Source: Humisphaera borealis (GTDB lineage: Bacteria; Planctomycetota; Phycisphaerae; Tepidisphaerales; Tepidisphaeraceae). From it: a stretch of DNA of 64,000 bases. Position numbers and translations under genes: made by a program. This document shows, piece by piece, positions 35,040 to 63,304 of the stretch (position 1 is the stretch's first letter; each line of letters begins with the position of its first letter). The stretch is from positions 1,054,001 to 1,118,000 of the forward strand of contig NZ_CP063458.1 of assembly GCF_015169395.1 (NCBI RefSeq). The letters are read 5' to 3'. The notes beneath the pieces are model-generated. The model was not told the DNA's origin and ran no database searches. It saw only the letters and a program-made list of their open reading frames with translations.

Positions 35040-35063
35040 GCGACTGGGTCTGATCGACGGTCC

Positions 35064-39921: not shown

Positions 39922-39967
39922 AAGAGATCGACACGTATGAAATGAAGCTTCATGCACGATCTCCCCA

Positions 39968-40912: not shown

Positions 40913-40962
40913 CCTTGCCGATCCTGTCGCGACGCGCGTCGATCCCGTCGATCCCGCAGCAT

Positions 40963-41460: not shown

Positions 41461-41806
41461 GGTGATGTACCTCGTTGCAACGTGCGTCAATCCGGCCGTC
41501 AAACTTCGGTCTGATGATAGACAGCGTCACCGCACCGCGCGAGCCTGAAAAATTTCTGCAAGTGTGACATCCTGTCCGCCCTGCCGTTCCTTCGACCCGT
41601 TGCATGGCAAGGTTTTCATCCAGACGTCCGCCGGGGAGCGGACTAAACCGCAGTTCCGTCGCATTGGGGCGGCACCAGATTGCGGCCACGCGGCGGGACT
41701 GATCGCGTTCGAGTTTCCCTTCACGTTGCAGCGACGGCACCGTCGTTGCAATGGCCTCCGGCGAGTGGCAGATCATCTTCAGGCAACGACATCGTGGAGG
41801 TCGAAC
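41461..41806. other. Divergent intergenic region
   Basis: A 346-bp stretch between the response regulator and the SRPBCC gene. A frame in phase with the latter is open to 41564 but begins with sequence of no recognisable kind, so it is probably untranslated. I see no clear promoter of either sigma type. Confidence 0.4.
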
Positions 41807-42634: not shown

Positions 42635-42751
42635 TCGCGGCGTACGGTGAAAACCGTGGCCGACAGTTCGGCTTCCAGGGTCGTACGGCATCCGCCGATC
42701 GCGCAAACCCTCCCAATCTTCAACATCGCTCTCAACCACAGGACCAAGATC

Positions 42752-43918: not shown

Positions 43919-43958
43919 TGGGTGCTCAGTTCGCCGACTCCCTGTCAAACTCAACGTC

Positions 43959-44400
43959 GCCGAACGAACTCGAACCTTATCCCTTCCTCCGGTACTCCCG
44001 GGGGAAGGGATTGGGTCGAAGGTTCCCGACGCACTCTCGTCACTCGAGATGGCCAAACAAACCCGAGGTTGAAGGCAAAGTGGGAACATTGAACCTCCGG
44101 TATCGAACGTCCAACTGCAAAGTCCCGGCCGCCAAACGAACCCGAGAGTCGGCTCCGCACCCAAGGCTCTGCCAGTGCGCCGCACCATCGGCTTGTTTGC
44201 CGAACGAACCCAGATCGCCGAACGAACCCGAGATCGCCAATCGAAGCCGAGAATCAAGACGAACTTCAAACGTCAGAACCCAATTGCGCGCAAGTCTTGT
44301 TCTCGACCGCTGTCCATGACGGGGCTTTCCAGGCCGTGGGAGGTGCATCACGCACCGACAGATTCCATCCTCAAGCCTCATTGGTCTGCCGAACGAACCC
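43959..44400 (+). repeat. Scattered GCCRAACGAACCC repeats
   Basis: Copies of the 13-mer GCCRAACGAACCC occur at 44131-44143, 44199-44211, 44217-44229 and 44388-44400, with degenerate copies at 43959-43970 and 44052-44064. Spacing is irregular (18 to 170 bp), so this is not a tandem array and not a CRISPR. All copies have one orientation. I do not know the family. Confidence 0.65.
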
Positions 44401-45554: not shown

Positions 45555-45786
45555 TCTTCGGCTCCCCTCGGCCTCCCGATGTCGGGCAACCCGTTCGCGC
45601 AACCCGTTCAGGTAAGGTGTCGGCCAATACGTCCTCCGATTCCCCGCTGCACACCCGACTCCAAACGCCAGCCCGGAGCGCGGTAGCCGAATAGCCGCAA
45701 AGCAAAGATCGCCACAAGGTTGCGGCAGGCCCCCGCTTTTCGTATCCTTGGAGGTCCGTCGGAAACGGCGACGGCAACTTTTTTTT

Positions 45787-45869
45787 GGCCTCATGGCGGA
45801 ATTGGCAGACGCAGTGGATTCAAAATCCACCGCCCCAAAGGCGTGAGGGTTCGAGTCCCTCTGAGGCCA
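45787..45869 (+). tRNA. tRNA-Leu (anticodon CAA)
   Basis: The acceptor arms GGCCTCA and TGAGGCC pair, followed by discriminator A; CCA is not encoded. The anticodon stem GTGGA/TCCAC closes the loop TTCAAAA, with anticodon CAA at 45821-45823. The variable arm is a short class II stem (CGCC...GGCG), and the T-arm is GAGGG-TTCGAGT-CCCTC. The 83-nt gene is intact. A tyrosine integrase gene reads into its 3' half on the other strand, so it is the likely attachment site of an element. Confidence 0.95.
45820..45869. other. Putative attachment site (attL) in tRNA-Leu 3' half
   Basis: The last 16 codons of the integrase gene (MASEGLEPSRLWGGGF) are the antisense of the tRNA-Leu 3' half. Integrases of tRNA-targeting islands lie next to the site they use, and the 3' half of a tRNA is the usual crossover. 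I could not find the matching direct repeat (attR) within the window. Confidence 0.55.
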
Positions 45870-47127
45870 TCCTAACAGAATGCGAACTTTCGCACTCCGT
45901 CGCAACCGCTGGCACGCCAGCGGTTTTTGCGTTTTGCGGCCAGGCGTTTTGCGAGGTGTTTCCAGTCGATTCTCGGCCGGGCTGCGCTGGTTTTTGCGCT
46001 CCCGGTTCGGTCATTTGGGCGGCACGTTCGTAGTGCTGGTCGGTCACCTGAAGGTAGTGGTCTTTCGCCACGTCTTCGGAGTTGCCGAGCCACTGGCACA
46101 CGACGTGGCCGGGGAAGATCTCGCAAAGTTCCGTCTGCCGTGTCGCTCGCAGATTGTGAAAGAGTCGCGGCCATGGTTCGACGTCGGCAACGTCGATGAT
46201 TCGCATCAACTGCGTCCGCAGATTGCTGTTGGGATTGCGATAGCGGGTGATGACGAACTCCGAGCCTTCCGATGCATTCTGAAACACTTCCAGCAGGTAG
46301 CGTTTGAGCTCGGGGAACATCGGAATGACGCGGGTTCCCTTGTTGCTGTAGTGCTCCGTCTTGGGCGCGTGGACGAGAATGCGTTCGCGATCCCAGTCGA
46401 TGTCGCCCCACCGCAGGCCCAGATGCTCGGACGGACAGCGCAGCCCGCCGTAGCGGCTTAGCGCGAAGATGAGCCGCCATTCGGCGTCGGGACAGGCGAT
46501 CAACACCTTCTGCGCGACTTCCTGGCTGATGAAACGTTTGCGGGCATCGTTCTTCTGGGAGCCGGCCTTCACGTCCTCGAAGGGATTCTCAGGGATCAGC
46601 TTCCACTTGACCGCCTTGCGGAAGAAGTGGCGGCAGGTCTTCACCCGGCGACTGAGCGTGGCCTCGGCAAGACCCTTCGCCTTCTGCGCCTGTCGCCACT
46701 CGTCGGCCTCGAGTGGCCCGATGGTTGCGATGTCGCGATCGGCGCCGAAGTAGGCGACGAGGTCACGCCGAACCTGACGGTAGGCGGTCTGTGTACTCAG
46801 CTTGATGTCGAGCGAGCCGAGCCACTTGTCGAACATCTCGCCGAGTGCTCCCGTGCGTTTGGCTTCGGATGCCGCCGGTGCGATAAGTCCCTTGGCTTCC
46901 AGTTTCGTGCGCAGCGGGCCTTCCAGTTTGGCGACCCACGTCGCCGTGGCGTCGTCCACGGGGCGATTCTGTTTCAGGGCTGACAGGAGCGATTCGATCT
47001 TATCCATGAATCGCTCGGCGTCGCGGCGCGGCATCTTGCCCGGTCGGATGGTCTGTCGGCCGGATACGCCCGGCCGAAAGAACTGGATGTGCCACAGGTT
47101 GTCACCGTCTTCAATTAAGCTTGCCAT
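45820..47127 (-). CDS. Tyrosine recombinase / site-specific integrase
   Basis: A 435-residue phage-type integrase of the kind common in planctomycete islands. The core-binding domain lies at about 95-180 (MFDKWLGSLDIKLSTQTAYR). The catalytic domain has R in SRYGGLRCPSEHLGLRW, H-x-x-R in LFHNLRATRQTEL, and the nucleophile Tyr near the end in KDHYLQVTDQHYERA. The last 60 residues are low complexity and then antisense tRNA. The start MASLIEDGDNLWHIQFFRPG is 51 bp downstream of the HTH gene stop, so the two form an operon. It marks the boundary of an integrated element. Confidence 0.93.
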   Translation of the reverse strand: MASLIEDGDNLWHIQFFRPGVSGRQTIRPGKMPRRDAERFMDKIESLLSALKQNRPVDDATATWVAKLEGPLRTKLEAKGLIAPAASEAKRTGALGEMFDKWLGSLDIKLSTQTAYRQVRRDLVAYFGADRDIATIGPLEADEWRQAQKAKGLAEATLSRRVKTCRHFFRKAVKWKLIPENPFEDVKAGSQKNDARKRFISQEVAQKVLIACPDAEWRLIFALSRYGGLRCPSEHLGLRWGDIDWDRERILVHAPKTEHYSNKGTRVIPMFPELKRYLLEVFQNASEGSEFVITRYRNPNSNLRTQLMRIIDVADVEPWPRLFHNLRATRQTELCEIFPGHVVCQWLGNSEDVAKDHYLQVTDQHYERAAQMTEPGAQKPAQPGRESTGNTSQNAWPQNAKTAGVPAVATECESSHSVRMASEGLEPSRLWGGGF

Positions 47128-47178
47128 TTGGGTTGCTCCGATGGAGGCCGGCTCTGATTGAGTTTCTGCCCGGCGAGA

Positions 47179-47400
47179 TCACGCGGCCAGCACGCTGGCG
47201 GGCCGAGTTTTGGCACGTTCAACGAACGCAATCAGGTCGGCCGGGTCGAATCGGACCGAACGCCCGATCTTGACGGCGGCAAGCTCGCCGCGGTCGACGA
47301 TGGTCCAGAGGGTCCGTGGCGAGATCGCTAGGAACGTGGCGGCCTCGCGGCTGGACATCAGTTTCTGCATGGGTCGGATACTGTTCTCGAGTAATCGCAT
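47179..47400 (-). CDS. Excisionase-like helix-turn-helix protein
   Basis: A 73-residue MerR-type winged helix protein. MSSREAATFLAISPRTLWTI followed by VKIGRSVRFDPADLIAFVER is the usual excisionase/DNA-binding domain (HTH_17). The ATG at 47400 has AGAGGA upstream; an internal ATG at residue 11 is less supported. It lies directly upstream of the integrase on the same strand, so it probably controls integration and excision of the element. Confidence 0.85.
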   Translation of the reverse strand: MRLLENSIRPMQKLMSSREAATFLAISPRTLWTIVDRGELAAVKIGRSVRFDPADLIAFVERAKTRPASVLAA

Positions 47401-48840
47401 GTGGGCATCCTCTCACACTTTTTGGTGCTGAAAAGGGTCGAGTGAGTCCGCGCCATGCAAACGACCACAGCAAGGTTCGAAGGTATTTTTACGAACTTCA
47501 GCCGCTGCCGCCAAGGGCGGAGGAATAGTTCGAGTGGGGTCTTGAACGCCTCGGTTCGCAGCTTGAAGTCGGCGATTGCGGTGGTCGATCAACGTACTGA
47601 GTTCACTTTCGGATCTCGGTGGAAGTCGATCGGACCAAATCAAAATCCGTGCCAGATCTCGTTCCGTAAGCGCAGGGCATTGGAGGCGCGCTATGGGGCG
47701 GCAACTTGGACTTACCCCTGAGCGCATTGACCACCACCCAGCGCGGAACGGTCGTGGCGACGGCATGCCGACAGCGCCTAAGTTGAGGTCTTTTGACTCG
47801 GTCGCCTGTCTTGTGATGGCGCAAGAAGTGTTCAGTTTTTCGGGGTTCAGAGATCCGTGTTCCTGGCATGGCCATTCGATTCTGGTGGTAGGCAATCCGG
47901 TGTTCGATATCGTGACTGTAGCGGACGCTACCAAAGTCTTCGACGGATGCAGCGTCCACATCCATCAGTCTCTCGATAATCCTCATGTGTGATCTGTCTT
48001 TTTCGGTTTGACGAGTCCGTATGGAGTATTCGGGAACCCGCCGAACTGATCGGTGTCTCCCTGCCTGGCCTCACAATCACTTAGCGTCTTCCGGCACCCA
48101 CGCCGGATGCTTACTCCGTCTCCTTCGGCTGGCGCAACGCGGAGTGGGTATCTCAGGTAGATTCTGTGAGTCCCGCCAATTGACTGGTAGCGATGGAACG
48201 GCGCGTGCTGAAGTGCAGCAGCACCGCTCGTCACAAAGACCTATCCAGAGGCCCAGTAGTCCGTTGGGTCTGCGCCAGCGCCTGCGATCGCACTGCCAGG
48301 CACGACGATGTACTTGTCGGTTGTTCCTGCTTCGGCCGTCGTGGATGCCGTCACCGAGACGCCGGGAATGTCACCAACTCGCAGGAAGCGGCAAAATGAC
48401 TTAGGGGCGCTATTAGCGCTTTGCGCCCCTTCAGTAAATCCCTTAGCGCGCCTCGAATGCCGTTCTTTTGGCCATCCAGAGCCAAATTGTTTTTCTTTCT
48501 TTCTTCATCCTCTCGTCAAGTTTGAACATGACGATGCCGCCTTTTGGTTGCGCGCGGGGCGGAGAAAGAGGCACGATGTGTCGCGAACCGGCGTTCGGGA
48601 TGACTGCGCGCGATTCGCCGAAACAATCGCAGAGGTCGGCAGAAGTTTTTTCCGCCCTGTTCGCAGTCGAGCGCTCTGCGACGAACGGCCTCGATCTGGC
48701 GATGGCGGAGAAATGAATCGGGCCAGGGTGGGAGGTATGGTTGTTCGTCGCCCATGGACGCTATAGCTTGGCAGACTTCCTTCCGCCGCTCCGCGTGATG
48801 CTCACACTCTCGGAAAACGATGAAACCTTGGCACGACGAC

Positions 48841-48873
48841 CGAGATGGCTGAGATGTCCGAGATGGCGAGGCT
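48841..48873 (+). repeat. Short GAGATG-type tandem repeat
   Basis: Three imperfect copies of a nine-base unit (GAGATGGCT, GAGATGTCC, GAGATGGCG) follow directly after one another. They lie 25 bp upstream of the CACACCT array, and may belong to the same control region. Confidence 0.5.
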
Positions 48874-48895
48874 CCCACGTCTCTCCGGTAGATGA

Positions 48896-49127
48896 CACAC
48901 CTTCTCACACCTTTCCCACACCTCCCGAAGAAAGGTCATTGAGCGCAAACTCTTGTTTTGTCTGGAATAAGGACTTCAATACACACCTTCCACATCTTTT
49001 CAAAGATCAAAGAGGAAGTAAAAGAGTAAGTATCTATATGGGGTAACATGGGACCCAAAAAAAGGTATTCAAGGTGTGGGTGAACAGCGTAACTCTCTGC
49101 CCAGCTGAAGCTTCGACGTTCACACCT
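48896..49127 (+). repeat. CACACCT iteron-like array in an AT-rich pocket
   Basis: CACACCT occurs at 48896-48902, 48906-48912 and 48917-48923, that is with starts 10 and 11 bp apart (one helical turn), then at 48982-48988, as its complement AGGTGTG at 49072-49078, and again at 49121-49127. The interval between is AT-rich for this genome (for example ATAAGGACTTCAATACACAC). Phased repeats beside an AT-rich stretch are what replication or partition control regions of plasmids and integrative elements look like. No replication gene is adjacent, so function is inferred only. Confidence 0.55.
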
Positions 49128-49318
49128 CCTCGCGAAGGTGCGTCAAAGGTGGAGATGTAGGTCAGTGGACGTTGGTCAACCCAGGATTGGACAGCGGCCC
49201 GGTCGTTCCCCATCTCTTCCCCCGCCCTCGCGGCTCCCACTATGTGCTGCGGTGATTACTGACCTTGCGGAGCGCCTGTGGCCAGCTGACGCGGCTGGAA
49301 CGACTTCTTGGGTCAGAA

Positions 49319-49543
49319 TCATGGTACCTTGAGCAGCAAAGCCCATCGCTCTTTCTGCGCCTCATAGGCTAACGTCCATTCACCAGGGGCAGCCTGACAG
49401 CGGGCATCACGATAATGCTCCGCCAACCGCAGCGGTTCTTTTGAGGGGCAGATCAATTCGGTCAATGGCGGGCCGTCGGCTACGAGACGCATCGTCGGAA
49501 GCGATGCAAGTAACGTGGGACTGATCTTCAGGGGAGCGCTCAT
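49319..49543 (-). CDS. Small hypothetical protein
   Basis: A 74-residue frame, MSAPLKISPTLLASLPTMRL, with a balanced composition and the aromatic-rich ending WTLAYEAQKERWALLL. There is no clear ribosome site and no family I recognise. Among the many frames of the island it is one of the more protein-like, but it could be chance. Confidence 0.3.
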   Translation of the reverse strand: MSAPLKISPTLLASLPTMRLVADGPPLTELICPSKEPLRLAEHYRDARCQAAPGEWTLAYEAQKERWALLLKVP

Positions 49544-50240
49544 AAAAACGGTGGCCTCGATACAGGTCTGGTCGGACGTTCCCGACCTTGAACATTGCGG
49601 CCGGATGCGCAGTCAAGCGTTACGGCATCTGGCTCGTACTATTTACCGGGTTAAGAATATCCTTCACCCCACGATTACGCCTACGAAACGGGGAGCTGGG
49701 AACATCCGACCGGTATCTTCAAAGTCCGCGTGAGGTGCCAATTCGCGGCGTGCAGCCGAATCAGATTAGCCTCTGTGCGGAGCGGAGAGCCGGAAGGCTT
49801 AGCGCGCCCCGCGTGGTGATCTGCGTGAGTTCGACCCCGCCTCTTACCCTTCTTCCCTCCGCCGATGGAAAGCCATGCCCTGATGACCTGCGGTCGTGCC
49901 GTACATGGCGGCCGTGTAGCTCGGTCGCAAACCAAGCCACGACGTAATAAGCCCTCGGAGACCGCACGATTGGCGTTCCGGCCGCGACACCAAGTGGACC
50001 ATCGCACTGAGCACCTGTGACTGGAGAACGCGCGGCCTCCAAAACTCTCCTGAGCCATCTCGAGCATCATGCCCCTGCCGCGAGCGCTTGGACCAACCGA
50101 ACCGAGAACGGACGTCCAGTGATAGGTGATGAACAGCGATAAATCCGCACGGTGGTCACTTTCCGGGCGTGATCCTTCGACACTTTCTGCGCCATCGCGA
50201 TCACAGCCCCATTTCCCCGTCCGACCTCAATCCATGAAGG

Positions 50241-50272
50241 AAGGCATTGGAACATCAATGTCCCAATGCCTT
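50241..50272. terminator. Long stem-loop in the island
   Basis: AAGGCATTGGAACA (50241-50254) pairs with TGTCCCAATGCCTT (50259-50272), a 14-bp stem with one mismatch and a four-base loop. It is far from any confident gene, so it may be a terminator of a lost gene, or a structural element of the island. Confidence 0.4.
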
Positions 50273-50560
50273 CGTCGTGATCCCAGTCTGAGTTCTCGTT
50301 CAGGTCCACCCCACACCTATCGCGATGGACGTCGCCGTTCGGGACTGTTGCTCCAAGACGTCTGATGATTCTGGCGGCTCGATCAACTCGCAGATGCTTC
50401 TGTCTTCCTCCCCTCCGCCGATTGCCGCGCGATTGATCCAAGAACAAAGATCGTACTTTGCCTGAGGTATGCGTATCAAAAGTCACTTCGACAAAGCGAT
50501 CCGTCGATTGGCGAAAGAACAGGCTCGAAAGTGCGAGTTCCTGCCATGGCATGCGACGCA

Positions 50561-50791
50561 TCAAGATCGCCCGTCGGCAAGGTTCTCGGAACGCAGGATC
50601 TCAATCCTCTTGCAAACGTCCACCCACTTCGGCCCGGCCAGTCGATGGAACGCCCACAGCCACCAACCGCCGCGAATCTTGATTCCGAAGTCGCTCGCTC
50701 GGTACGCCATTGGCTCGCCGCGAGCATCCCGCTTCCACTCAACGCCGACGCGATGAGCACGCGATTCGGTTACTGCTCTTTGAAAAAACAA
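50561..50791 (-). CDS. Small hypothetical protein, possibly 3'-truncated
   Basis: A 76-residue frame whose interior reads like a real protein (VGVEWKRDARGEPMAYRASD, then IKIRGGWWLWAFHRLAGPKW). It then stops just after ILRSENLADGRS. The Trp-rich core and charged turns set it apart from the shadow frames around it. It may be a fragment of a longer gene of the island. I do not recognise a family. Confidence 0.35.
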   Translation of the reverse strand: MFFQRAVTESRAHRVGVEWKRDARGEPMAYRASDFGIKIRGGWWLWAFHRLAGPKWVDVCKRIEILRSENLADGRS

Positions 50792-50846
50792 TGTAACTCA
50801 CTTCGTCCTGCCGAAGACTCCTGAGCCATTCAGGAAGGAGTCCTCC

Positions 50847-51375
50847 ATGAGGCCGAAAGGGAGTTCGGCGGTTCTGGAACAGCGACGCCGCGACGCGCTG
50901 GCCCTGCTGAAGCAGGGCATGAAGCCCGCCGCCGTCGCCAAGACGTTGCGCGTGTCGCTCGTGTCCATCGGTCGCTGACGGCAACTCGCGTCCGGCGGAG
51001 GAACCAAAGCGTTGGCGGCGAAACCGCAATCAGGTCGTCCGCCGAAGCTCGATGCGGCGAAGCGGAGCAAGATTGCCGGCCTGCTTCTGCTCGGGCCGAA
51101 GCATCACGGCTTCGATAACGACCTGTGGACACTGGACCGGATCGCACAAGTGATCCAACGGCACTTTTCGGTGAGCTACCACCCGAGCCAGGTCTGGCGA
51201 ATCCTGCTCTCGATCGGCTGGTCCTGCCAGAAGCCGCAGCGTCGGGCCAGGGAACGCAACGACGATGCGATCGAGCACTGGCGGCGAGCCGTCTGGCCGC
51301 GCATAAAAAAAGGCGCGAAAACACGTCAAAAGCGTGCTGTTTCTCGATGAGACGGGCCTGATGCTCCAGCCGTAA
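50847..51375 (+). pseudogene. IS630-type transposase remnant
   Basis: The N-terminal part of an IS630/Tc1-type transposase. It begins MRPKGSSAVLEQRRRDALAL with a helix-turn-helix (MKPAAVAKTLRVSLVSIGR). An in-frame TGA at 50976-50978 follows where relatives usually have Trp. The frame then continues KPQSGRPPKLDAAKRSKIAG and VWRILLSIGWSCQKPQRRA. A frameshift near 51320 moves reading to the frame of SVLFLDETGLMLQP, which holds the first Asp of the DDE triad, and a TAA ends it at 51375. The C-terminal half is absent. With three lesions it is dead. Confidence 0.75.
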
Positions 51376-51393
51376 ATCATCACCCTTCAGACT

Positions 51394-51593
51394 ATGAAGC
51401 TCATCCACGCCCTCCTGCTAACCGCGCTGCTCGCGTTACCCTTCCCAGGCCTTCGGACTGCCGCTCGTTGAATGCGTGTCCGACGCAGATGTGCCATCGG
51501 TGGCGAAGGCACATTCAGAGGGCGATTTGTGGTGGCAGCGGATGTTCTCGATGGCGTTCGACGGCCATGAGGTCGTGAAGGAGATCATCGCCC
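51394..51593 (+). pseudogene. Fragment of a secreted protein gene, frameshifted
   Basis: An ATG at 51394 starts a signal peptide (MKLIHALLLTALLALPF) that runs into a stop. A shift to another frame continues QAFGLPLVECVSDADVPSVA and LWWQRMFSMAFDGHEVVKEI up to the start of the Dabb frame. So this is a remnant of one exported protein with a single shift near 51448. I cannot name the family. Confidence 0.45.
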
Positions 51594-51836
51594 ATGATTC
51601 GTCACACCGTTGTCTTCCGACTCAAACATCCCGCAGCCTCTGCCGCCGAACGGGATTTCCTCAGAGCCGCGCGCGAGCTTGCAGGCATCCCTGGGGTACA
51701 ACACTTCGAGTGCTTGCGGCAGATCAGCGCCAAGAACCCCTTCACCTTTGGTCTCTCGATGGAGTTCGCCAATGCGGCGGCCTATAAGCGATACAGCGAC
51801 CATCCCGACCATGTGCGCTTTGTGCAGGAGCGTTGA
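51594..51836 (+). pseudogene. Dabb (stress-responsive alpha/beta barrel) gene, 3'-truncated
   Basis: An 80-residue product, MIRHTVVFRLKHPAASAAER, with the Dabb-family pattern (a beta-alpha-beta barrel; FGLSMEFANAAAYKRYSDHP, then HVRFVQER). Full-length relatives run about 15-20 residues further, usually continuing with Trp-x-Pro. Here the frame ends TGA right after FVQER, where the sequence turns into the giant surface-protein frame. So the gene was cut by the recombination that made the junction at about 51834. Dabb dimers usually bind small aromatic or stress metabolites. Confidence 0.7.
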
Positions 51837-54800
51837 CCCAACCGATTTCCAGTTAACCTTCTCCGGCGGCGTCAGCGCGGCGACAGCCGTCGCGGTCAAC
51901 CCGGTAAGCCCGTCGGTTTACAACGTGGCCGTCAGCGGGATCGCCGGCAGCGGAACGCTGGGATTAAATCTTGTGGATAACGGCACCATCCGTGACACGG
52001 CAGGACATTCGCTGCAAAGCAATGCCGCCACGGCTGGCTTATTCGCGAGTGAGACGACTTTCGCCGTTGGGTCCCGGCCGTTTACCGTGGCATCGGCAGA
52101 TGTGAACGGAGATAACAAACCCGACCTGATCACTGCAAATTTTGGAAGTGACAACGTTAGCGTTCTTCTGGGCAACGGCGATGGAACCTTCCAGGCGGGG
52201 ACGACTTTCGCAGTTGGTGACGGACCATATTGCGTCGCCGCCGATGTGAACGGTGACAATAAGCCAGACCTCGTTACCGCCAACTATCACAGCAAATCCG
52301 TCAGCGTTCTTCTGGGTAACGGAGACGGAACATTTCAGGCACAGAAGACCTTTGCAGTCGGGATCGGTCCGACGTCCGTGATCGTGGAAGACATGAACGC
52401 CGATGACAAGCCTGACATTGCAACCTCCAACTCGGTCGCCGGCACCGTTAGTGTCCTTCTGGGCAATGGAGACGGCAGTTTTGAAGCTCAGCTTACCTTT
52501 GCGGCCGGGCTCGACGCAGGTTCTTTGATCTCTGCGGATTTGAACGGCGACGACAACCCTGACCTGATTGCCACGAACTACTACAGTACCACAGTCAGCG
52601 TGCTTCTGGGCAATGGCGACGGCACCTTTCAGGCGAGGCAGGTGATCGCGGTTGGCTCCAGCACCGCTACAGTGACCTCGGCAGACGTTAACAATGATGG
52701 TAAGGCCGACCTGGTGACTGGTAACTGGGCAAGCGACACCATCAGCGTCCTACTGGGGAAGGGGGATGGAACCTTCCAAGCGGAGAAGACCTTCAACGTC
52801 TCCGAACCGTGGTACATCACATCGGTGGAAGTGGACGGCGACGGCAAGATCGACTTGATCGTCGTTGACGAGTTCAATGACAAAGTCAAGGTGCTTCTGG
52901 GAAACGGTGACGGCACATTCAAGGCGCAGAAGACTTACGATGCAGGATCTAGTCCAGTTTTAGTGGAGGTGGTCGACGTCAACGGCGATGCCAGGCTCGA
53001 CTTGATAACCGCCAACTTCAACAGCGACACTGTCAGCGTGCTGCTGAATAGCGGTAGAGGGAATTTCACGGGCCAGACTTACACGATCCAAGTCCCACCA
53101 TCGAACTCAGCGGTCTACACTGTCACCAGTCTTGGCGACTCGGCAGGGACTGTGACAGCCGCAGGACCTCGGAAGTTCAACGCCACGACGCTGCGCGCAG
53201 CAATTGCCGCAGCGAACTCCCATCTTGGGAACGATGCAATCGAGTTCGCTCCCGGGCTCAAGGGCATGATCACGTTGTCCACTGCGTTGCCTCAATTGTC
53301 TGACAATGTAGTTCTGAGGGGGCCTGGCGCATCGCTATTGACGGTGGCACGCAGCCCTTCGGAGGCCTCAAACTTCTCGATCTTCTTCCTCAATGCCGGC
53401 AAGACCGCGACCATCTCAGGTCTCGGGATTGCAAAGGGCACTGGTGTTCCCGTGGGGCCATCGGGCATCACAGCTGGCGGAGGCATCTTCAACAACGGAG
53501 CGCTGCGCATTACTGACTGTGTACTTACCGAGAACTCTTCGAAGTCGACCGGTGGCGGCATCTACAGCGCGGGGAACTTAACTGCCACTAACTGCACGTT
53601 TACTGGAAACTCCGCACAAGACGGTGGCGCGATTTACACTACCGGCACGGCAACCTCAACCCTTCAGAGTTGCAACCTCGCGGGCAATTGGACGGGCCAG
53701 GGCGGCCGTGGCGGCGGAATCTCCAACGGTGGGGCCCTCACCATAGATACCAGCCTTCTGGTCGCGAATTCGGCAGGCCGTGCCGGCACGGGAGGTGGCG
53801 TGTACAACGGCGGAAGCCTCGTCCTAAGAGGGTCAACTGTGGCCGGGAATGCGGCCCAACAGGGTGGTGGGATCTACCACGCGGGAAATGGCTCGTTCAT
53901 TGCATCCAACGCAATTGTGGCGATGAATCTCAAGGAAACATGCAACGTCAACGGACAGGTGACGGCAACTAACCCCGACGATCTCTTCGGTGCCTCGACC
54001 AGCACGGCCAGTTCTTTCAACCTCATCGGCACCGGCGGCTCTGCGGGCATGGCCAACGGTGTCAACCACAACATTGTTGGCGTCGATCCTGGTTTCCTTC
54101 TCAATCCAAGTTCGGGTGCCGACGGGATCCGAGCCACCGCCGACGATGGGCCCGGGAACTTCCGACTCCGGCCGGACTCGCGCGCCCTCAATGGTGGCGC
54201 GAATAATCTCGTCGCTCCCGGCATTACGATGGACATCGACGGACGTCCGCGAGTTGTCGACGGGACTGTCGATATCGGCGCCTATGAGATGAAACTGCTG
54301 CGCGTCAGCAGCAGTGCCACTGGCGGCAGTACCGGCCAGTCGTGGAGCAGTGCATTCCGAAGTCTGAGTGGCGCCTTGGGAGCGGCGAGTCCGGGCACCA
54401 ACGTCCTGGTGGAAGCCGGTACCTATCTACCCGGTACGGCCAGCGCTCGGAGTGCGTCATTCTCTCTCGGGGCCGGAGTGTCGGTATTTGGCGGATACGC
54501 TGGGAACAGCAATCCCCTGAACCCGAATCAGCGGGACATCTCCGGATTCAAGACAATCTTGTCGGGAGACATCGGCAGGCCGAACGATAACAGCGATAAC
54601 AGTTACCATGTCGTCACTGCCGTCAACGGCGGAGCTCCGATTGTGCTCGATGGTGTCACCATCACGGCAGGCAATGCCAACGATGCCAGTGCGCTGAACG
54701 GCAAGTTCGGCGGCGGATTGCTGATTATCGGTTCCTCGGCCGTGCTCCGCGATTGCCTCGTCAATCATAATTCTGCGCTCGGCAGCGGTGGTGGCATTGC

Positions 54801-56991
54801 GGCTCTGCTCGGGTCCAATGTCGACGTCAAGAACTCGGAAGTGAGTCAGAACAAGGCGGGCGTCGACGGCGGTGCGATGCACACCAGCGAGGGTGCCAGG
54901 CTGAGCATGACCGGCGGCAAGGCGATCGGCAATCTTGCCGGGGCGCTGGGCGGTATGCTCGGTGCCGGCGGACAGTCCAAGTTCGAGATAACCGGCGTCG
55001 ACGTCGCCGGCAACAAGGCCAAGGAAGGTGGCGCGATCTCCGTCAAGGAGAAGTCGTCCGGGATCGCCGATCAGTGCAAGATCAACGGCAATGAGGGCTC
55101 GGTCAACGGCGGCGGGTTCCGCATCAAGGACGAAGGAGCGGTCGACGTCAAGAACTCGGAAGTGAGTCAGAACAAGGCGGGCGTCGACGGCGGTGCGATG
55201 CACACCAGCGAGGGTGCCAGGCTGAGCATGACCGGCGGCAAGGCGATCGGCAATTTTGCCGGTGTATTCGGCGGCATGCTCGGTGCCGGCGGACAGTCCA
55301 AGTTCGAGATGACCGGCGTCGACGTCGCCAGCAACAAGGCCAAGGAAGGTGGCGCGATCGCGGTCAAGGAGAAGGCGTCCGGGATCGCCGATCAGTGCAA
55401 GATCAACGGCAATGAGGGCTCGGTCAACGGCGGCGGGTTCCGCATCAAGGACGAAGGAGCGGTCGACGTCAAGAACTCGGAAGTTAGTCAGAACAAGGCG
55501 GGCGTCGACGGCGGTGCGATGCACACCAGCGAGGGTGCCAGGCTGAGCATGACCGGCGGCAAGGGGATCGGCAATCTTGCCGGGGCGCTGGGCGGCATGC
55601 TCGGTGCCGGCGGCCAGTCCAGGTTCACGATGACCGGCGTCGACGTCGCCAGCAACAAGGCCAAGGAAGGTGGCGCGATCGCGGTCAAGGAGACGGCGTC
55701 CGGGATCGCCGATGAGTGCAAGATCAACGGCAATGAGGGCTCGGTCAACGGCGGCGGGTTCCGCATCAAGGACGAAGGAGCGGTCGACGTCAAGAACTCG
55801 GAAGTGAGTCAGAACAAGGCGGGCGTCGACGGCGGTGCGATGCACACCAGCGAGAACGCCAGGCTGAGCATGACCGGCGGCAAGGCGATCGGCAATTTTG
55901 CCGGTGTATTCGGCGGCATGCTCGGTGCCGGCGGACAGTCGAAGTTCGAGATGACCGGCGTCGACGTCGCCGGCAACAAGGCCAAGGAAGGTGGCGCGAT
56001 CGCAACGAACGAGGAGTCCGTGGGGGCCGTCACCCAGTGCCTTGTAAATGGGAACCAAGCCAGTGGCTTGGGAGGCGCACTGGCGGCTCTCGGCAGTTCA
56101 ACGTTGGGCGTGACTAACTCGACGCTCTCTGGAAATATGGCGGACAAGGGTGGTGCCATTGGCGTTAGTTCCATCAAACGCCTCTTTGTCGGTGCCTGCA
56201 CGATTGTTGGCAACACTGCTGCAGTCGGCGGAGGCATCGCAGGGCTAGGCGCTGCGATTGGACTCTTCAACGCGATCGTCTGCGGCAACTTTGGATTGCT
56301 GACCACCCTGCGATCGTCGGAATCGCCTTCCAACGACATCGAAGGAACGATAGGCTCCGACAGTTCATCGAACCTGGTTGGCGTGGGTGGTTCCGGAGGC
56401 ATTGTCAACGGCAAGAACGGCAACCTCGTCGGCATCACCCTCGCCCAGCTCAAACTCGGCCCCCTGGCCGACAACGGCGGCCCGACCCAGGCCATGGCCC
56501 TGCTCCCCGGCAGCATCGCCATCAACGCCGGCTCCAACGCCAAAGCCGTCGACGCCGCCGGCAAACCCATCGCGACCGATCAGCGCGGCACCGGCTTCGC
56601 CCGCATCGTCGGCGGAATCGTCGATGTCGGCGCGTTCGAAGTGCAATCGCCCGTCGTCACCGGCAAAGGCTCCGTCGCCGGCATTGTGTTCAAAGACCTC
56701 AACGGCAACCGCATCCAGGACGCCGATGAGTCAGGCGTCAAAGGCTGGCTCGTCTGGGCCGACCTGAACAAGGACGGCCGGCTCAACTACAACGAGCCCC
56801 GCACCGTCAGCAACGCCGGCGGTCAATACACCCTCACCAACGTCCCCACCGGCTACCAACTCGTCCGCTTGGAGAAGCGCACCGGCTGGCAACAGACCAT
56901 TCCCCGAGGCGGCGGCGCCCACGGCCCGACGATCCTCACAGACAAGCTGATCACCGGCTGGCATTTCGGCATCCGGCCGATTCTGGGATAA
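51832..56991 (+). pseudogene. Giant FG-GAP / beta-helix / SdrD-B surface protein, 5' end missing
   Basis: A frame of about 1,720 codons without a plausible start: it emerges directly from the Dabb gene and has no signal peptide. Order of parts: the end of an adhesin-type domain (VDPTDFQLTFSGGVSAATAV), six or seven FG-GAP/VCBS repeats with Ca-binding DVNGDNKPDL loops (52.04-53.07 kb), a right-handed parallel beta-helix (GGGIYSAGNLTATNCTF) closed by VDIGAYE (54.28 kb), a second beta-helix with 321-bp tandem repeats, closed by VDVGAFE (56.64 kb), and an SdrD B-like module (GSVAGIVFKDLNGNRIQDAD) to the stop. It is probably a cell-surface adhesin remnant; if expressed it needs a start in the upstream fusion. 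Confidence 0.75.
54820..55998 (+). repeat. 321-bp intragenic tandem repeats (107 residues)
   Basis: The sequence beginning GTCGACGTCAAGAACTCGGA recurs at 54820, 55141, 55462 and 55783, exactly 321 bp apart, giving three full units and about two thirds of a fourth. Units are almost identical at DNA level, differing at a handful of positions (for example IGNLAGALGG versus IGNFAGVFGG, alternating between units). Recent duplication or gene conversion is likely. Confidence 0.92.
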
Positions 56992-57137
56992 CGTCCGGCC
57001 GACGTATCCGCGGCCTTGTAACGAAGCCAACCGAGTACAAGCCGAAGCGGCATCGCGATTGGACTTTGAACCTTTTGCTTTTCTGGCACGTTTATTGGCG
57101 GCACGCTGGCCACGACGCAACGTTCACCTTTCCCATC

Positions 57138-58544
57138 ATGACACTCACCCATCCTCTGTTTCGTCTACTCTGCCTGGCGATGATTCTCCCCACGACGGCC
57201 TCGGCAGAGGGTACCACGAGAAGGCCCAACGTCGTCATCCTCCTCACCGATGACCAAGGGACACTGGATGCAAATTGCTACGGCTCAGCCGACCTCAAGA
57301 CCCCCAACATGGATAAGCTGGCCTCGACCGGCACGCGCTTCACGCAGGCCTACGCACACACCGTCTGTTGTCCGTCCCGGGCGGCCCTATATACGGGGCG
57401 TCATCCGCAGCGCGGAGGGGTGATCAACTGGACCCAGGGAGATCGCCACGGCACCGACCGCGCCAATATCAACATGGCCGCCGAGGAAGTCACCCTCGCC
57501 GAGGTTCTGAAATCCGCTGGCTACCGCACCGCCTTGTTCGGCAAATGGCACCTGGGCGCGAAGATCGGCCATGGTCCGCTGGACCAGGGGTTCGAAACTT
57601 ACTTCGGCCACCTCGGCGGCTTCATCGACAACTACCGGCACTTCTTCCTGCACGGGCGCGGCTATCACGACCTCTACGAGGGCAACGACGAGGTCTTCCG
57701 TCGCGAGGAATACTACCCGGACCTGATGACTGAGAAGGCCGTCGCCTACATCGATAAGAACAAGGACGCGCCCTTCTTCCTAACCGTCGCGTTCAACCTC
57801 CCGCACTATCCCGAGCAGCCTATCGCCGCGTTCAAGGACACCTACGCGGACATGCCGATGCCGCGCCAGGCCTACGCGCGGGTCATCTCATCCGTGGACG
57901 CGATCATCGGCCGCGTGATCGACAAGCTCGAACAGACCGGGCTCCGGGACGACACCATCGTCATCATGATGAGCGATAACGGCCACTCGACCGAGGACAA
58001 CAAGGGGATCGCCGTCGAGAACCACACCAGCGGCTACCCAGTCGGCCACTACTACCTGGCGCACGGCGGCGGGGGCAACACGGGCAAGTGGATCGGCCAC
58101 AAGGGTCAGTTCCTCGAGGGCGGCATCCGCGTGCCCGCGATGATCAGCTACCCGGCCAAACTCCCCCGCGGCCAGACCCGCGAGCAGGTTGTCCCGATCA
58201 TGGATTGGTTCCCGACCGTCCTCGAACTCTGCGGCATCCAAAAGGAGACCGGCGCACCCAAACTGGACGGTCGAACCATGATCCCGGTGATCGCTGATCC
58301 GAAAGCCCCCAGCGCTCACGAGGTGCTGCATTTCGGCTGGGCCAATGGATGGGCAGTCCGCAAAGGCGACTGGAAACTCATCTCCACACAAAACAAGACC
58401 AACGGCAAGGTCACCAAGGCCAGCCTACACAATCTGACAGGGCCTGAGCCGGAGGCGAAGGATCACGCGGCCGAACACCCCGAAATCGTGGCCCAGCTGA
58501 CGGCGCTCCACGAGGCGTGGGAGAAGGATGTCAACCCGAAGTAG
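57138..58544 (+). CDS. Sulfatase (formylglycine-dependent)
   Basis: A 468-residue exported sulfatase. The start at 57138 (MTLTHPLFRLLCLAMILPTT) gives a signal peptide ending near residue 24; an upstream in-frame start lacks one. The active site is C77-C-P-S-R81 (CCPSRAALYTGRHP), the first Cys being the one converted to formylglycine. NVVILLTDDQGTLDANCYGS, LFGKWHLGAKIGHGP and IVIMMSDNGHSTEDN complete the family. It resembles arylsulfatase A-type enzymes acting on sulfated glycans. It overlaps the next sulfatase by 14 bp at the 3' end, on the opposite strand. Confidence 0.93.
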   Translation: MTLTHPLFRLLCLAMILPTTASAEGTTRRPNVVILLTDDQGTLDANCYGSADLKTPNMDKLASTGTRFTQAYAHTVCCPSRAALYTGRHPQRGGVINWTQGDRHGTDRANINMAAEEVTLAEVLKSAGYRTALFGKWHLGAKIGHGPLDQGFETYFGHLGGFIDNYRHFFLHGRGYHDLYEGNDEVFRREEYYPDLMTEKAVAYIDKNKDAPFFLTVAFNLPHYPEQPIAAFKDTYADMPMPRQAYARVISSVDAIIGRVIDKLEQTGLRDDTIVIMMSDNGHSTEDNKGIAVENHTSGYPVGHYYLAHGGGGNTGKWIGHKGQFLEGGIRVPAMISYPAKLPRGQTREQVVPIMDWFPTVLELCGIQKETGAPKLDGRTMIPVIADPKAPSAHEVLHFGWANGWAVRKGDWKLISTQNKTNGKVTKASLHNLTGPEPEAKDHAAEHPEIVAQLTALHEAWEKDVNPK

Positions 58545-60381
58545 GGGCGGGTCCGAGACCGGTGCCCCTCGGGCGTGTTCCCTCGGAATCGGGGATCACG
58601 GCTTTGGCTGCGCGGTCGCCGATGACGAAGCTGCCCAGGCGTGCGCCGCTCTCGGCGCGGATTTCCCACACGGCACCCGGCCGCGTCTGCTGGCGAATGA
58701 TCTTTGCGGCGGCGATGGCGCCATACGATTTCGAACTCCCATCGGGCGCGATCCAGAATAACTCCACGCTCTGCTCGCGCGAGTTGACGAACGTGACATC
58801 AAACGGATTGCCATCGGGCTTCGAAGGCGGCGTGGCTCCTCCGTCCGCGGGATGCCAGTCGAGTGCGGGAAGTGACGCGAGCGGGATATCCGCGACGGGC
58901 GCGGCATCCGCCGGCGCGAGCGCACGCAGTTCGGCGGCGCGCGCCTTGTGTTCGGCGGTTCCGTCACGGTGCAGAAGGTTGGTCCACTCGTGAGGGTCGG
59001 CGGCGATGTCGTAGAGTTCCTCTTCGCCGTTGGCGTAATGGATGTAACGCCAGCTGTCGCGGCTTACGGAATAGGCGTCCGGGGTCTGGAGTTGTGTGAT
59101 TGCGGCGTGGGGCCACGTGCCCTTCGGGTTGCGCAGCAGCGGCACGAGGCTGCGCTCGGCGGCGTCCTTGTTCCCCGACGCGGGCAGCCCGCACAAATCG
59201 GTCAGGGTGCGGAATACGTCGGTGAGGCTGACCGCACGGTCGCAGATATCCCCGGCGGCGGTGCCCTCGGGCAAGCCAGCCGCCCCCTTGGGAACACGTA
59301 CGATGAGCGGCACCCGCGTACACAACCGCCATCCGGTGTATTTCTGCCAGTGCTCCTTCTCGCCCAGATGCCAGCCGTGATCGCTGATGAGGACGACGAT
59401 GGTGTTGTCACGGTGCGGGCTTTTCTCCAGCGCGTCTAGCACACGCCCGACCATGGCGTCCGCAAAATGAATGGCGGCGAGATATGCCTGGACGCCCTGC
59501 TTCCACTGGCCCTGCTTCTGGATGTGCTCGAAGTAACGATTGCGGGCGAGTTTCTGCCCCGCCGCCGGGACGTCGTCGAGATCTTCAGCCTTGTAGCCCG
59601 GCCCAACCTGGATTGTTTCGAGTGGAAACGGCTCGAAGTATTCCTTGGGCACGAACCACGGCTCGTGGGGCTTGTAGATGCCGCAGGCAAGGAAGAACGG
59701 TTTGTCGTGCGGGTGCCGGAGTTGTTCGCCGATCCACTTTGTCACCAACCAATCGCCGCCATGTTGCTCGTCGGTCACGTCGAGTGCGGCCCAGTCGGTC
59801 TCGCGATACTGCCATGGTCCGCCCACCGGCAGGCCGACCGGGCGGTTGGGGGGATCGAACGTGCGCGGGAAAGGATCATCCTTCGACTTCTCTGGGAAGT
59901 AGTCGTCCCAAGATTGGGGGTCGATGACGTAATGAAGCAGCTTGCCCGAACCAGCAGACCAGTAACCGTTGCGGGAGAAATGGCGCGGCAGCAACTCCGC
60001 GCGGGGTATGACATCGCGGAGCTTCTGCGCGTTGTTGTAGAGGCCGGAACGGTACGGCGGCACACCAGAGAAAATCGCCGAGCGAGACGGATTGCACGAG
60101 GGCGCGGGGCAATGCGCGTTGGTGAACAGCACGCCGCTCCGGGCCAGTCGGTCGATATTGGGGGTTTTCGCCTGCGGGTGTCCGCCCAGGCAGCCGACCC
60201 AGTCATTGAGGTCGTCGGCGACAATGACTAGGACATTGGGCTTGTCGCCGGGAGTCGCCGCGCAAACCCCATCGCCCCATAGGCCGGCGAGCAAGGCGAA
60301 GAGCACGCCACCCACCCTTATTCCGGCCATCGCCACGGCAATCAATATCCATAGGCGTGGCATGTTTTCGCGAGTCTTCAT
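58531..60381 (-). CDS. Iduronate-2-sulfatase-like sulfatase with C-terminal VHL-like beta domain
   Basis: A 616-residue exported sulfatase. The active-site motif is C96-N-P-S-R100 (CNPSRSAIFSG), with NVLVIVADDLNDWVGCLGGH before it and LISDHGWHLGEKEHW later, as in iduronate-2-sulfatases. Residues from about 527 form a second domain (FDVTFVNSREQSVELFWIAP, then SYGAI and QQTRPGAVWEI) that matches the pattern of the von Hippel-Lindau beta domain. In sulfatases this tail may bind a glycan or protein. The N-terminal start may instead be at residue 7. It is convergent with the previous sulfatase. Confidence 0.88.
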   Translation of the reverse strand: MKTRENMPRLWILIAVAMAGIRVGGVLFALLAGLWGDGVCAATPGDKPNVLVIVADDLNDWVGCLGGHPQAKTPNIDRLARSGVLFTNAHCPAPSCNPSRSAIFSGVPPYRSGLYNNAQKLRDVIPRAELLPRHFSRNGYWSAGSGKLLHYVIDPQSWDDYFPEKSKDDPFPRTFDPPNRPVGLPVGGPWQYRETDWAALDVTDEQHGGDWLVTKWIGEQLRHPHDKPFFLACGIYKPHEPWFVPKEYFEPFPLETIQVGPGYKAEDLDDVPAAGQKLARNRYFEHIQKQGQWKQGVQAYLAAIHFADAMVGRVLDALEKSPHRDNTIVVLISDHGWHLGEKEHWQKYTGWRLCTRVPLIVRVPKGAAGLPEGTAAGDICDRAVSLTDVFRTLTDLCGLPASGNKDAAERSLVPLLRNPKGTWPHAAITQLQTPDAYSVSRDSWRYIHYANGEEELYDIAADPHEWTNLLHRDGTAEHKARAAELRALAPADAAPVADIPLASLPALDWHPADGGATPPSKPDGNPFDVTFVNSREQSVELFWIAPDGSSKSYGAIAAAKIIRQQTRPGAVWEIRAESGARLGSFVIGDRAAKAVIPDSEGTRPRGTGLGPAPTSG

Positions 60382-60701
60382 GGTCGGTTCTTCTTGGTGT
60401 AGGTGGTGTTGATATGATACTGCCGGGCGGGCCGGTGACGGAAGTCGCAGTAGCGAAGACGCAATACGATCAACTGACCAATATGCACGTCATCTTGTTG
60501 AGCATCTGCCTCCGGGGTCATGCTGAATGAGCCTTCGGACCTGATTTGCCACAAAACGGCGAACGATAATGAGGCTCGAATCCCCCGGTCCGGCGGCTTC
60601 CGGCGGCTGCGGTGATCGCGGTTGCCAGGGACATCTTGACCTCAGGACGCCGAACGTCTTTGCCCTTGCGGCGATAGCCACAACCATGTAGACCGCATGA
60701 C
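60382..60701. other. Intergenic region between divergent sulfatases
   Basis: A 320-bp divergent stretch with no gene. Promoters for both sulfatases must lie here, but I see no convincing consensus boxes. Confidence 0.5.
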
Positions 60702-62108
60702 GTGAAACCCCTGCTTATCACGCTTATCACCCTCCTGCTGATTCCGCTACCTGCGATTTATGCCGCTGATGTAATCCAGCCTGTCCTGCCTGGTGCGTCA
60801 GGGAGACCGCCGGCAGGAGTGCCTGTGTCATGTCCCAATATCATCGTCATTCTCGCCGACGACCTCGGCTATGAATGCATCGGGGCCAACGGCGGCAAGT
60901 CCTACCAGACGCCGCACTTGGACCGCATCGCGAGCACGGGCGTCCGCTTCGAGCACTGCTATGCTCAGCCGAATTGCACGCCGACGCGCGTACAGATGAT
61001 GACCGGCATGTCGAACGTGCGGAACTATGTGGACTTCGGCTCGCTGGAAAAATCGCAGACAACCTTCGGCCATTTGTTTCGCGATACCGGCTACGCCACC
61101 TGCATCGCCGGCAAGTGGCAGCTCGGTTCCAAGGACCCCTCGCTGCCCAGGCACTTCGGCTTCGATGAGCACTGCCTGTGGTCGATGCTCGGACGCGGCG
61201 AGCGCTACGCCAACCCCAGCCTCTCAGTGAATGGTGAGTTCAATACCTTCGCCGGAAAGTACGGGCCGGACGTGTGCCAGGAGTTCGTCGTCGATTTCAT
61301 CCGCCGCAATCGCAGCAAGCCGTTCCTGGTCTATTACCCGATGATCCTCACGCACGGACACTACGAGGCGACACCGGACAGCAAGGACTACGGCCAGCCG
61401 GGCGCGCAGGCAAAGGCGGCCAATCAGCAGCACTTCGCCGACATGGTGGCCTACATGGACAAGCAGATCGGCAACTTGACGAAGGAACTCGAAGCCCTCG
61501 GCCTGCGCGAGAACACGCTCATCCTCTTCAGTGGCGACAATGGCACAGGCCGCGGCGCGACCTCGACACTGGAGGACGGAAGCGAGCAGGACGGGGAAAA
61601 GGGCAGCACCACTCGCGGCGGCATGCATGTGCCTCTCATCGCGAGCTGGCCCGGCAAAATGAAGCCCGGCACCGTCTGCCTCGATCTCGTGGACATGACC
61701 GATTTCCTGCCCACGATCTGCGAAGCAGCGGGCGTGTCCGTGCCGAAGACACTGACCCTGGATGGTCGCAGCTTCCTTCCCCAGGTGCGCGGCGAGAAAG
61801 GCCAGCCGCGTGATTGGATTTACAGCTATTGGGTGCCGCTGCGTGCGTCACAAACCAAGCATGTCGGCACACGCGGCGCGGTGGAGCAGGCGTTTGATCA
61901 GCATTTCAAGCTCTACAGCACCGGCAAGTTTTTTGACCTCGACCACGACGTGGAGGAGAAGTCGCCACGGCGAGTTGCAGACTTGCAGGGCGACGCCGCC
62001 GCCGCCGCCCGCAAACTTCAGGCGGCGCTGGAGCAATTCAAAGACGCCCGGCCGGCCAGCCTGAGTCCGCCGACTGTGCCGGGGGAAAGGAATAAGAAGA
62101 CCAAGTGA
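60702..62108 (+). CDS. Sulfatase (formylglycine-dependent)
   Basis: A 468-residue exported sulfatase beginning with GTG (MKPLLITLITLLLIPLPAIY). The active-site motif is C92-T-P-T-R96 (NCTPTRVQMMTG). NIIVILADDLGYECIGANGG, AGKWQLGSKDPSL and FSGDNGTGRGATS fit the family. It differs in motif from the other two sulfatases nearby (CCPSR, CNPSR) and from that at 25.8 kb (CWPTR), so the cluster probably cleaves several sulfate linkages. The following toroid gene is on the same strand, 98 bp away. Confidence 0.92.
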   Translation: MKPLLITLITLLLIPLPAIYAADVIQPVLPGASGRPPAGVPVSCPNIIVILADDLGYECIGANGGKSYQTPHLDRIASTGVRFEHCYAQPNCTPTRVQMMTGMSNVRNYVDFGSLEKSQTTFGHLFRDTGYATCIAGKWQLGSKDPSLPRHFGFDEHCLWSMLGRGERYANPSLSVNGEFNTFAGKYGPDVCQEFVVDFIRRNRSKPFLVYYPMILTHGHYEATPDSKDYGQPGAQAKAANQQHFADMVAYMDKQIGNLTKELEALGLRENTLILFSGDNGTGRGATSTLEDGSEQDGEKGSTTRGGMHVPLIASWPGKMKPGTVCLDLVDMTDFLPTICEAAGVSVPKTLTLDGRSFLPQVRGEKGQPRDWIYSYWVPLRASQTKHVGTRGAVEQAFDQHFKLYSTGKFFDLDHDVEEKSPRRVADLQGDAAAAARKLQAALEQFKDARPASLSPPTVPGERNKKTK

Positions 62109-62206
62109 CTCATCCAGCCACCGATAAACGACTTACGCACGGCCAGTTTGGGCGACAATTACGTCCTACACTCTGAGAAGTAATGACCGGCATCCAGGAG
62201 GATTCG

Positions 62207-63253
62207 ATGAAACACACGCTCGCATTCCTCTCAGCCCTGCTGCTCACACCGCTGGCTGCAATACAAGCTGCCGAAGCCACTAACAGCGTCGAATCCGCCA
62301 CACAGCGAGGCTTGGCGCGTGTTATGCAGGCGGCGAGTCGTTGGCAGACGCATAAGACGTGTTTCTCATGCCATCATCAGACGCTGCCAATGCTCGCGGC
62401 GCTGGAGGGTGCGCGCGTGGGGATTCCCTTGGATAAGGCGTGGCTGAAGTCGCAGGCGGACACCACGCTGAAGTATTTCGAGGACCGCATCGAGAGCATG
62501 GACGATGGCGATCATGTGCCGGGTGGCGCTGCGACCGTGGCATTCGGGCTCTGGGCTTTGGATCTCGACCATCGACCTTCGGACAAGACCACGACGTCGA
62601 TGGTGACATATCTGCTTAAGATCCAAGGCGTCACGAGACTGCGCGATGGCAGTAAGGAAATTCCGCTGCCGGAGGCACGGGACGGACACTGGCAGGCATC
62701 GTGTCGCCGCGCACCGATGCAGGCATCGCTCATCGGCGATACCGTGCTCGTGCTCATCGGCCTGGAGAAGTACGGGACAAAGGAACAGCGATCCCTCGTC
62801 GCTGGGGCGCGAACGAAGGCGGAGCAATGGCTAGCCAATACGCCCCTGCGCGACCAGCAGGATCGCCTCTGGCGTCTTTGGGGGCTGCATCATCTCGGCG
62901 GAGCCGAGGCGCTGAAGCAAAACACCCTCGCCGCCGTGATTGCCGCGCAACGCGACGATGGCGGCTGGGCCGAAACGAAAGACCGCGAGAGTGACGCTTA
63001 CTCCACGGGCCAGACCTTGTTCATGTTGTTAAAAACCGGCACCGCCGCCGAACACCCGGCCATTGTTCGAGCGCGAGACTATCTATTGAAGACGCAACGC
63101 GCCGATGGCTCGTGGCTGGCCGAATCGCATGTGAAGTTCAAGGCCCAGCCCTACTTCGACAATGGCGACCCGCATGGCGAGCATCAGTTTCTCTCCATCG
63201 CCGCAACGGCGTGGGCGGTCGCCGGACTTGCGCAATTACGTCCAGCCAAATAG
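62207..63253 (+). CDS. Secreted alpha-toroid (squalene-cyclase/prenyltransferase-like) protein with CxxCH
   Basis: A 348-residue exported protein. AGGAGG lies five bases before the ATG at 62207 and the signal peptide ends near residue 22 (MKHTLAFLSALLLTPLAAIQ). The rest is an alpha-alpha toroid of the terpene-cyclase/prenyltransferase type: repeats such as QRDDGGWAETKD and TQRADGSWLAESH are its QW-like turns. Near the N-terminus is CFSCHHQT (C52, C55, H56), a CxxCH pattern that could bind haem. Cyclase catalytic Asp motifs are not visible, so enzymatic function is doubtful. It lies in the sulfatase cluster. Confidence 0.75.
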   Translation: MKHTLAFLSALLLTPLAAIQAAEATNSVESATQRGLARVMQAASRWQTHKTCFSCHHQTLPMLAALEGARVGIPLDKAWLKSQADTTLKYFEDRIESMDDGDHVPGGAATVAFGLWALDLDHRPSDKTTTSMVTYLLKIQGVTRLRDGSKEIPLPEARDGHWQASCRRAPMQASLIGDTVLVLIGLEKYGTKEQRSLVAGARTKAEQWLANTPLRDQQDRLWRLWGLHHLGGAEALKQNTLAAVIAAQRDDGGWAETKDRESDAYSTGQTLFMLLKTGTAAEHPAIVRARDYLLKTQRADGSWLAESHVKFKAQPYFDNGDPHGEHQFLSIAATAWAVAGLAQLRPAK

Positions 63254-63304
63254 ATCGCGTCCCTCGCAGCGGTAAGCAGTTATTGAATAATGGAAAACCC
63301 TGCT

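Follow-up and report, generated by a model that had tools for sequence, protein, structure and literature searches.

Genomic islands and degenerate prophages at tRNA genes, deletions by illegitimate recombination at short homologies, giant surface proteins with FG-GAP and choice-of-anchor-Q domains, and the small Dabb (stress-responsive A/B barrel) proteins of Verrucomicrobia are the described systems closest to the locus that we examined in the window, i.e. the whole stretch of 64,000 nucleotides of the Humisphaera borealis genome analysed here, in which positions are counted from the first base. With the islands and degenerate prophages the locus shares a tyrosine recombinase gene convergent on a tRNA-Leu gene, an excisionase-like HTH gene, a phage-tail remnant, a transposase fragment and cargo resembling that of another phylum. 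At its centre a Dabb frame and a giant frame are joined at 51832-51836, and this join is likely to be the scar of a deletion in a laterally acquired, decaying genomic island. It is made up of the following features:

51591-51835, + strand: verrucomicrobial-type Dabb gene that lacks its 3' end (Pfam, DNA matches, tree)
51832-51835, + strand: GTTG, which fits both sides and is a possible short homology at the join (from the sequence and matches to relatives, through which alone the parents are known)
51832-56991, + strand: headless giant gene with a cut Ig-like domain, FG-GAP repeats, PMP/choice-of-anchor-Q repeats and SdrD_B (profile matches, homologue comparison)

The sequence-only reading of this DNA had placed the end of the Dabb frame against the start of the conserved interior of the giant protein, and the comparison with relatives agrees, as the Dabb DNA match stops at 51835 and the homology of the giant begins at 51832-51837. 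The Dabb frame runs from 51594 to 51836 and ends with the stop codon TGA (51834-51836). Its match to Pfam Dabb (PF07876; E 1.5e-16, 61.3 bits against a gathering score of 25) covers positions 1-80 of 96; the complete Dabb barrel including its last strand is absent, the frame stopping at profile position 80. The C-terminal end was checked in 39 loci, namely 32 of the 80 fetched Dabb relatives (L043-L074) and seven loci from relatives of the window's genome (L018-L024). All of the 32 printed relatives continue for 15-33 residues past the window's stop, with the motif 'W...V..F.E.D', which among the other seven caught two (L021 and L022, both longer too) and missed five. Within the best 80 of 226 relatives the closest to the window's Dabb protein are L043, from a Verrucomicrobiaceae metagenome-assembled genome (MAG), and L044, from a MAG labelled Chthoniobacter, with 85% and 83% amino-acid identity. 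The DNA match to L043 (the same as L147) has 88.6% identity over 245 bp; its last base is 51835, immediately before the A that completes the Dabb stop codon. Matches to L044-L047 likewise end at 51835, and some weaker ones end earlier.

At E<=1e-12 a Dabb protein was found in only two of the 396 other genomes searched of the window's class, both 42-44% identical, and 394 were without one; at the looser E<=1e-3 it was found in 7 of 60 relatives, with 31-39% identity. A Dabb tree of 85 rows (84 of 89 loci and the window's own row, five having been dropped for lack of a match) groups the window with L043 and L044 (99/86), on few columns and with a bootstrap that had not settled.

The surroundings of the Dabb gene were also compared with verrucomicrobial DNA, using 47130-64000 as query against 13 genomes that hold Dabb relatives, with 23 candidates scored per genome. 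Among the matches listed, the Dabb gene (89% over 245 bp) and a sulfatase gene lying 9 kb downstream of it (91% over 1,300 bases) were matched by the same Verrucomicrobiaceae MAG, and other stretches by 72-74% over 0.8-1.3 kb.

60702-62108, + strand: sulfatase gene, of which 60812-62108 is 91% identical to the Verrucomicrobiaceae MAG (G397:C4:61094-62393)

The signal-peptide end of this sulfatase (60702-60811) lies outside the MAG match. A control stretch of equal size (27200-44070), searched against the same 13 genomes, had no match longer than 63 bases that exceeded 82% identity; its best scores came from about 965 bases with 66% identity, and short pieces (44-63 bases) had 80-89%. The 16.9 kb that follow the query downstream matched 7 of the 13 genomes at E<=1e-20; identities were 69-79% in stretches of 1.2-3.9 kb (at 67.95-74.4 kb), and one other kilobase had 65%. 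Genes for DUF6288 and SASA esterase proteins, together with one more gene, lie in L040:3868-10389 (67868-74389 from the first base of the window), where the DNA is 69-79% identical to verrucomicrobial genomes over kilobases.

The two occurrences among 396 class genomes, the identity to the MAG, the control stretch and the tree together argue for a foreign origin of the Dabb gene. The sulfatase at 60702 is likely to be a recent transfer between phyla. Judged from these comparisons, a direction of transfer is supported for Dabb only, and for the sulfatase and the block at 67.95-74.4 kb the matches are no more than suggestive of foreign DNA.

The giant frame extends over 51610-56991 and would encode 1793 residues if a TTG inside the Dabb gene is taken as the start, so that automatic annotation might report a protein of 1,793 residues, of which the first 74 come from reading the Dabb gene in a shifted frame. 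These residues before 51832 show 66% 'identity' to L043 when L043 is read in the equally shifted frame, and genuine homology of the giant begins only with V/D at 51832-51837. From there on it has the domains of a large surface protein (FG-GAP_3 E 3.9e-47, choice_anch_Q E 2e-27, SdrD_B E 2e-7). In the homologue L039/L025 from the family of the window's genome (L039 being a longer fetch of L025), '..VTYTVTFTQPVTG' precedes the shared 'VDPTDF', which in L039 sits in the middle of an Ig-like domain. The L039 protein begins with a basic stretch and a 'LEERLALSA' head and has the opening portion of the Ig domain that the giant lacks. In the window's own genome, the related large proteins L037, L038 and L157 also begin with a basic stretch and a 'LExRxLxS'-like motif; these heads were read by eye, a regular expression for the LExR head having given no match. 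By eye, neither a LExR-type head nor a basic stretch was seen before 51832 of the giant, nor was a signal peptide. Past the join, the first in-frame starts are GTG at 51925 and at 51973, with the first ATG at 52393, and in 50700-52700 no sigma-70-like promoter was found against 0.4 expected. The earlier claim that the giant protein has neither start nor signal peptide holds, and nothing head-like precedes 51832.

The giant frame is open, with no stop in 5,154 bases (1,718 codons), which would not be expected of an old pseudogene. Such an absence of stops becomes 5% likely at a neutral divergence of 2.5% if all changes are equal, or of 3.3% if transitions are weighted. Hence either the cut happened recently or the frame is one that remains under selection or in use. 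The last 194-195 codons gave dN/dS of 0.083/0.397 and 0.082/0.372 against two paralogues (about 0.21 and 0.22), ratios which mostly record the time before the cut and say nothing certain on the time since.

It could be proposed that the giant is still expressed, from an unrecognised start past the join or as a fusion to Dabb. The 1,718 codons without a stop speak for this, as does the ratio of about 0.2 in the 3' part, though mostly a record of the time before the cut, and so does the context of the Dabb stop, AGGAG followed by CGT TGA C, which we take to be RF2-like and from which a +1 slip would lead into the frame of the giant. Still, we find continued expression quite unlikely: no signal peptide was seen, no ATG lies before 52393 and no promoter matched, and AGGAG and the nearby Dabb codons are nearly those of L043, so the context did not arise for slipping. 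The spacing of the AGGAG, moreover, presumably differs from that of RF2. A working chimera, in which an RF2-like +1 slip at CGT TGA C gives an intracellular Dabb-FG-GAP fusion of about 1,800 residues, would explain why the giant frame was kept open since the deletion, and it is to our mind scarcely credible. Under the deletion reading the giant remnant is most likely a young pseudogene, neither secreted nor made in quantity.

Some further observations concern the body of the giant gene. Positions 54820-56003 hold 3.7 tandem copies of a 321-base unit with 95% matches, which are young internal duplications, and the strand opposite the repeat array carries a 533-codon open frame (54457-56058, - strand) that is probably a by-product of the repeat and no gene. 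The last 600 bases (56404-57004) are 86-87% identical to the ends of two adjacent genes at 4.06 Mb in the same genome (L038:4840-5439 and 7024-7610); this identity is far above that of the other shared parts, and one of the matches extends 13 bases beyond the giant's stop. This suggests that the C-terminal end is an anchor that was kept alike or moved by conversion. A further match of the giant, over 98 bases (56451-56548) with 83% identity, is to a verrucomicrobial genome. The giant may be native, as the paralogues at 4.06 Mb would suggest, or may have arrived with the island, as the 98-base match would suggest.

Upstream of the Dabb gene the window contains elements shared with islands at tRNA genes:

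45786-45872, + strand: tRNA-Leu (CAA) (ARAGORN)
45820-47127, - strand: tyrosine recombinase (integrase) frame, overlapping the tRNA-Leu and convergent with it (Pfam Phage_integrase E 8.9e-9; NCBIfam Xer-type matches below cut-off)
47212-47361, - strand: HTH_17 protein, excisionase-like (Pfam HTH_17 E 5e-11; PHROG excisionase families)
48022-48300, - strand: remnant of a phage tail-assembly gene (BR0599) (Pfam PF09356 E 3.3e-10; phrog_778 E 1.9e-9)

The integrase gene adjoins the 3' end of the tRNA-Leu, as in genomic islands. Fourteen bases of this end (45857-45870, CCCTCTGAGGCCAT), which stop two bases before the tRNA end given by ARAGORN, recur exactly 39.4 kb further on, at L041:1223-1236, as a putative att repeat. 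In a chance control 35 of 2,000 random 25-mers from the window (1.75%) had a match as long, so that the far repeat is no more than suggestive of an att site. Over 124 kb, the window plus the following 60 kb, CCCTCTGAGGCCAT had no other copy on the + strand, and a genome-wide search for a longer copy of the tRNA-Leu end (25-mer, up to three mismatches) returned only itself. Between the tRNA-Leu and this repeat lie three sulfatases and DUF6288, SASA, DUF1501 and PSCyt2/PSD1 proteins. A point against the island reading is that GC3 is not uniformly odd across the stretch. The carbonic anhydrase gene beside the tRNA has a counterpart at E<=1e-40 in 2 of 25 other genomes of the family, and no tRNA was found in their 3.6-kb loci scanned; an attempt to find an empty site in the family through the carbonic anhydrase and a sulfatase met with relatives too few and too distant. 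The notion that the deletion also took the right end of the island was dropped, the 14-base repeat and verrucomicrobial-like DNA having been found further downstream.

In the 3.4 kb between 47400 and 50800, where the GC content is 0.56-0.59, six-frame Pfam and PHROG scans detected only the phage-tail remnant (48022-48300, - strand). This DNA is probably that of a decayed element.

Between this stretch and the Dabb gene, short pieces of other genes follow one another on the + strand:

50847-51368, + strand: transposase fragment, cut short and broken by an in-frame stop and a frame shift (HTH_33 E 1.6e-19, HTH_32, HTH_29; frames)
51391-51460, + strand: 5'-terminal piece of a gene of sugar-phosphate isomerase/AP_endonuc_2 type, comprising only the start and signal peptide (short DNA matches)
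51458-51567, + strand: 5' piece of the next gene in the same verrucomicrobial cluster (829 residues in L145), its start missing (DNA matches)
51568-51590, + strand: 23 bases between two joins, covered by none of the matches; either filler or what is left of another gene (DNA searches)

The transposase is presumably of IS630 type, with its 3' half missing. In a search of three sequences the isomerase end matched L145 (51411-51460, E 9e-5) and L146 (51391-51433, E 2e-6), and the piece of the 829-residue gene was 79% identical to L145 over 106 bp and 77% to L146 over 111 bp. Order and strand of these two pieces are those of the verrucomicrobial genomes L145 and L146, in which 866 and 882 bases separate the matched parts; in the window the parts touch or almost touch, so that about 860 bases have been lost. 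This deletion lies 375 bases upstream of the Dabb-giant join. The 380 bases upstream of that join thus contain no fewer than two others, of which one is a clean internal deletion.

Several short foreign pieces side by side could also have been captured, the transposase, isomerase, 829-residue gene and Dabb pieces being end-joined into a break in the giant gene, or the headless giant piece itself being the one captured. The 23 bases without a known source (51568-51590) do resemble the filler at end-joining sites. Two of the pieces, however, keep the order and strand of their source cluster, as after a deletion, and had there been a simple insertion, the giant's head should still lie on the upstream side of the foreign pieces, yet it was not found; we judge such a capture unlikely.

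The 5' part of the adhesin, whose absence had been pointed out, was sought elsewhere in the genome by DNA and by Ig-domain search, and none was found. In the DNA search with 50700-52060, for which 40 of 83 candidates were scored, only the query itself was returned, other hits having E>=0.05. A query made of the L039 head and Ig-like domain matched, besides the window, a 2560-residue ORF (E 5.8e-4) and an 857-residue ORF (E 0.067); the former has a head of its own, and no severed Ig-domain partner of the giant was found in this genome.

As to the claim that two genes were cut and joined by deletion or misassembly, the cutting and joining stand and deletion is the best explanation, while misassembly is neither shown nor needed. 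A join existing only in the assembly, through misassembly or chimera, might be suspected because the giant gene that borders the foreign DNA carries a repeat array (54820-56003), and assemblers err at such places. The genome, though, is assembled as a single 7.19-Mb contig (completeness 98.4%, contamination 1.8%), and the join is 3 kb from the array, in DNA for which no second copy was found. With other joins within 380 bases an assembler would need several errors at one place, one of them producing a clean internal deletion in a gene order still kept by two verrucomicrobial genomes; furthermore, verrucomicrobial DNA matches lie on both sides of the giant. We therefore hold an assembly artefact to be very unlikely. 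The sequence-only account is also incomplete: the join is one of a series, because the Dabb gene is verrucomicrobial in type and lies within a decaying stretch beside a tRNA-Leu with an integrase.

For the favoured explanation, a deletion scar in a decaying island, we propose the following course of events. An element carrying verrucomicrobial carbohydrate and sulfatase genes would have integrated at the 3' end of the tRNA-Leu by means of its own tyrosine recombinase, and would then have lost DNA through illegitimate recombination at very short homologies, such as GTTG at the Dabb-giant join. A single deletion running from Dabb (51835) to a point within the giant's Ig-like domain would have taken the tail of Dabb, the intervening DNA and the start, signal peptide and first domain or domains of the giant. 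The locus would then be a base-by-base record of how DNA from another phylum, lying next to a tRNA gene, can decay by deletions that fuse pieces of genes into chimeric open frames, and its sulfatase-rich, verrucomicrobial-like DNA in an apparent planctomycete is a concrete candidate for transfer between phyla.

In comparison with known genomic islands and degenerate prophages, the far repeat is short (14 exact bases) and putative, and the mobility genes in the scanned DNA are only the integrase, the HTH gene and the transposase fragment. The window's Dabb protein, 85% identical in amino acids to that of L043, differs from the Dabb proteins of Verrucomicrobia by the absence of the C-terminal 15-33 residues. 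The giant has the same domains as the FG-GAP/choice-of-anchor-Q surface proteins and paralogues in its own genome, and differs from them in being without the LExR-type head and the first part of the Ig-like domain. From described deletions at short homologies the join departs in that its parents, lost from this genome, are known only from relatives and the homology is one that we infer; it resembles them in its precise joins in two reading frames, the possible 4-base overlap and the loss of the intervening DNA, and the event is of an ordinary kind.
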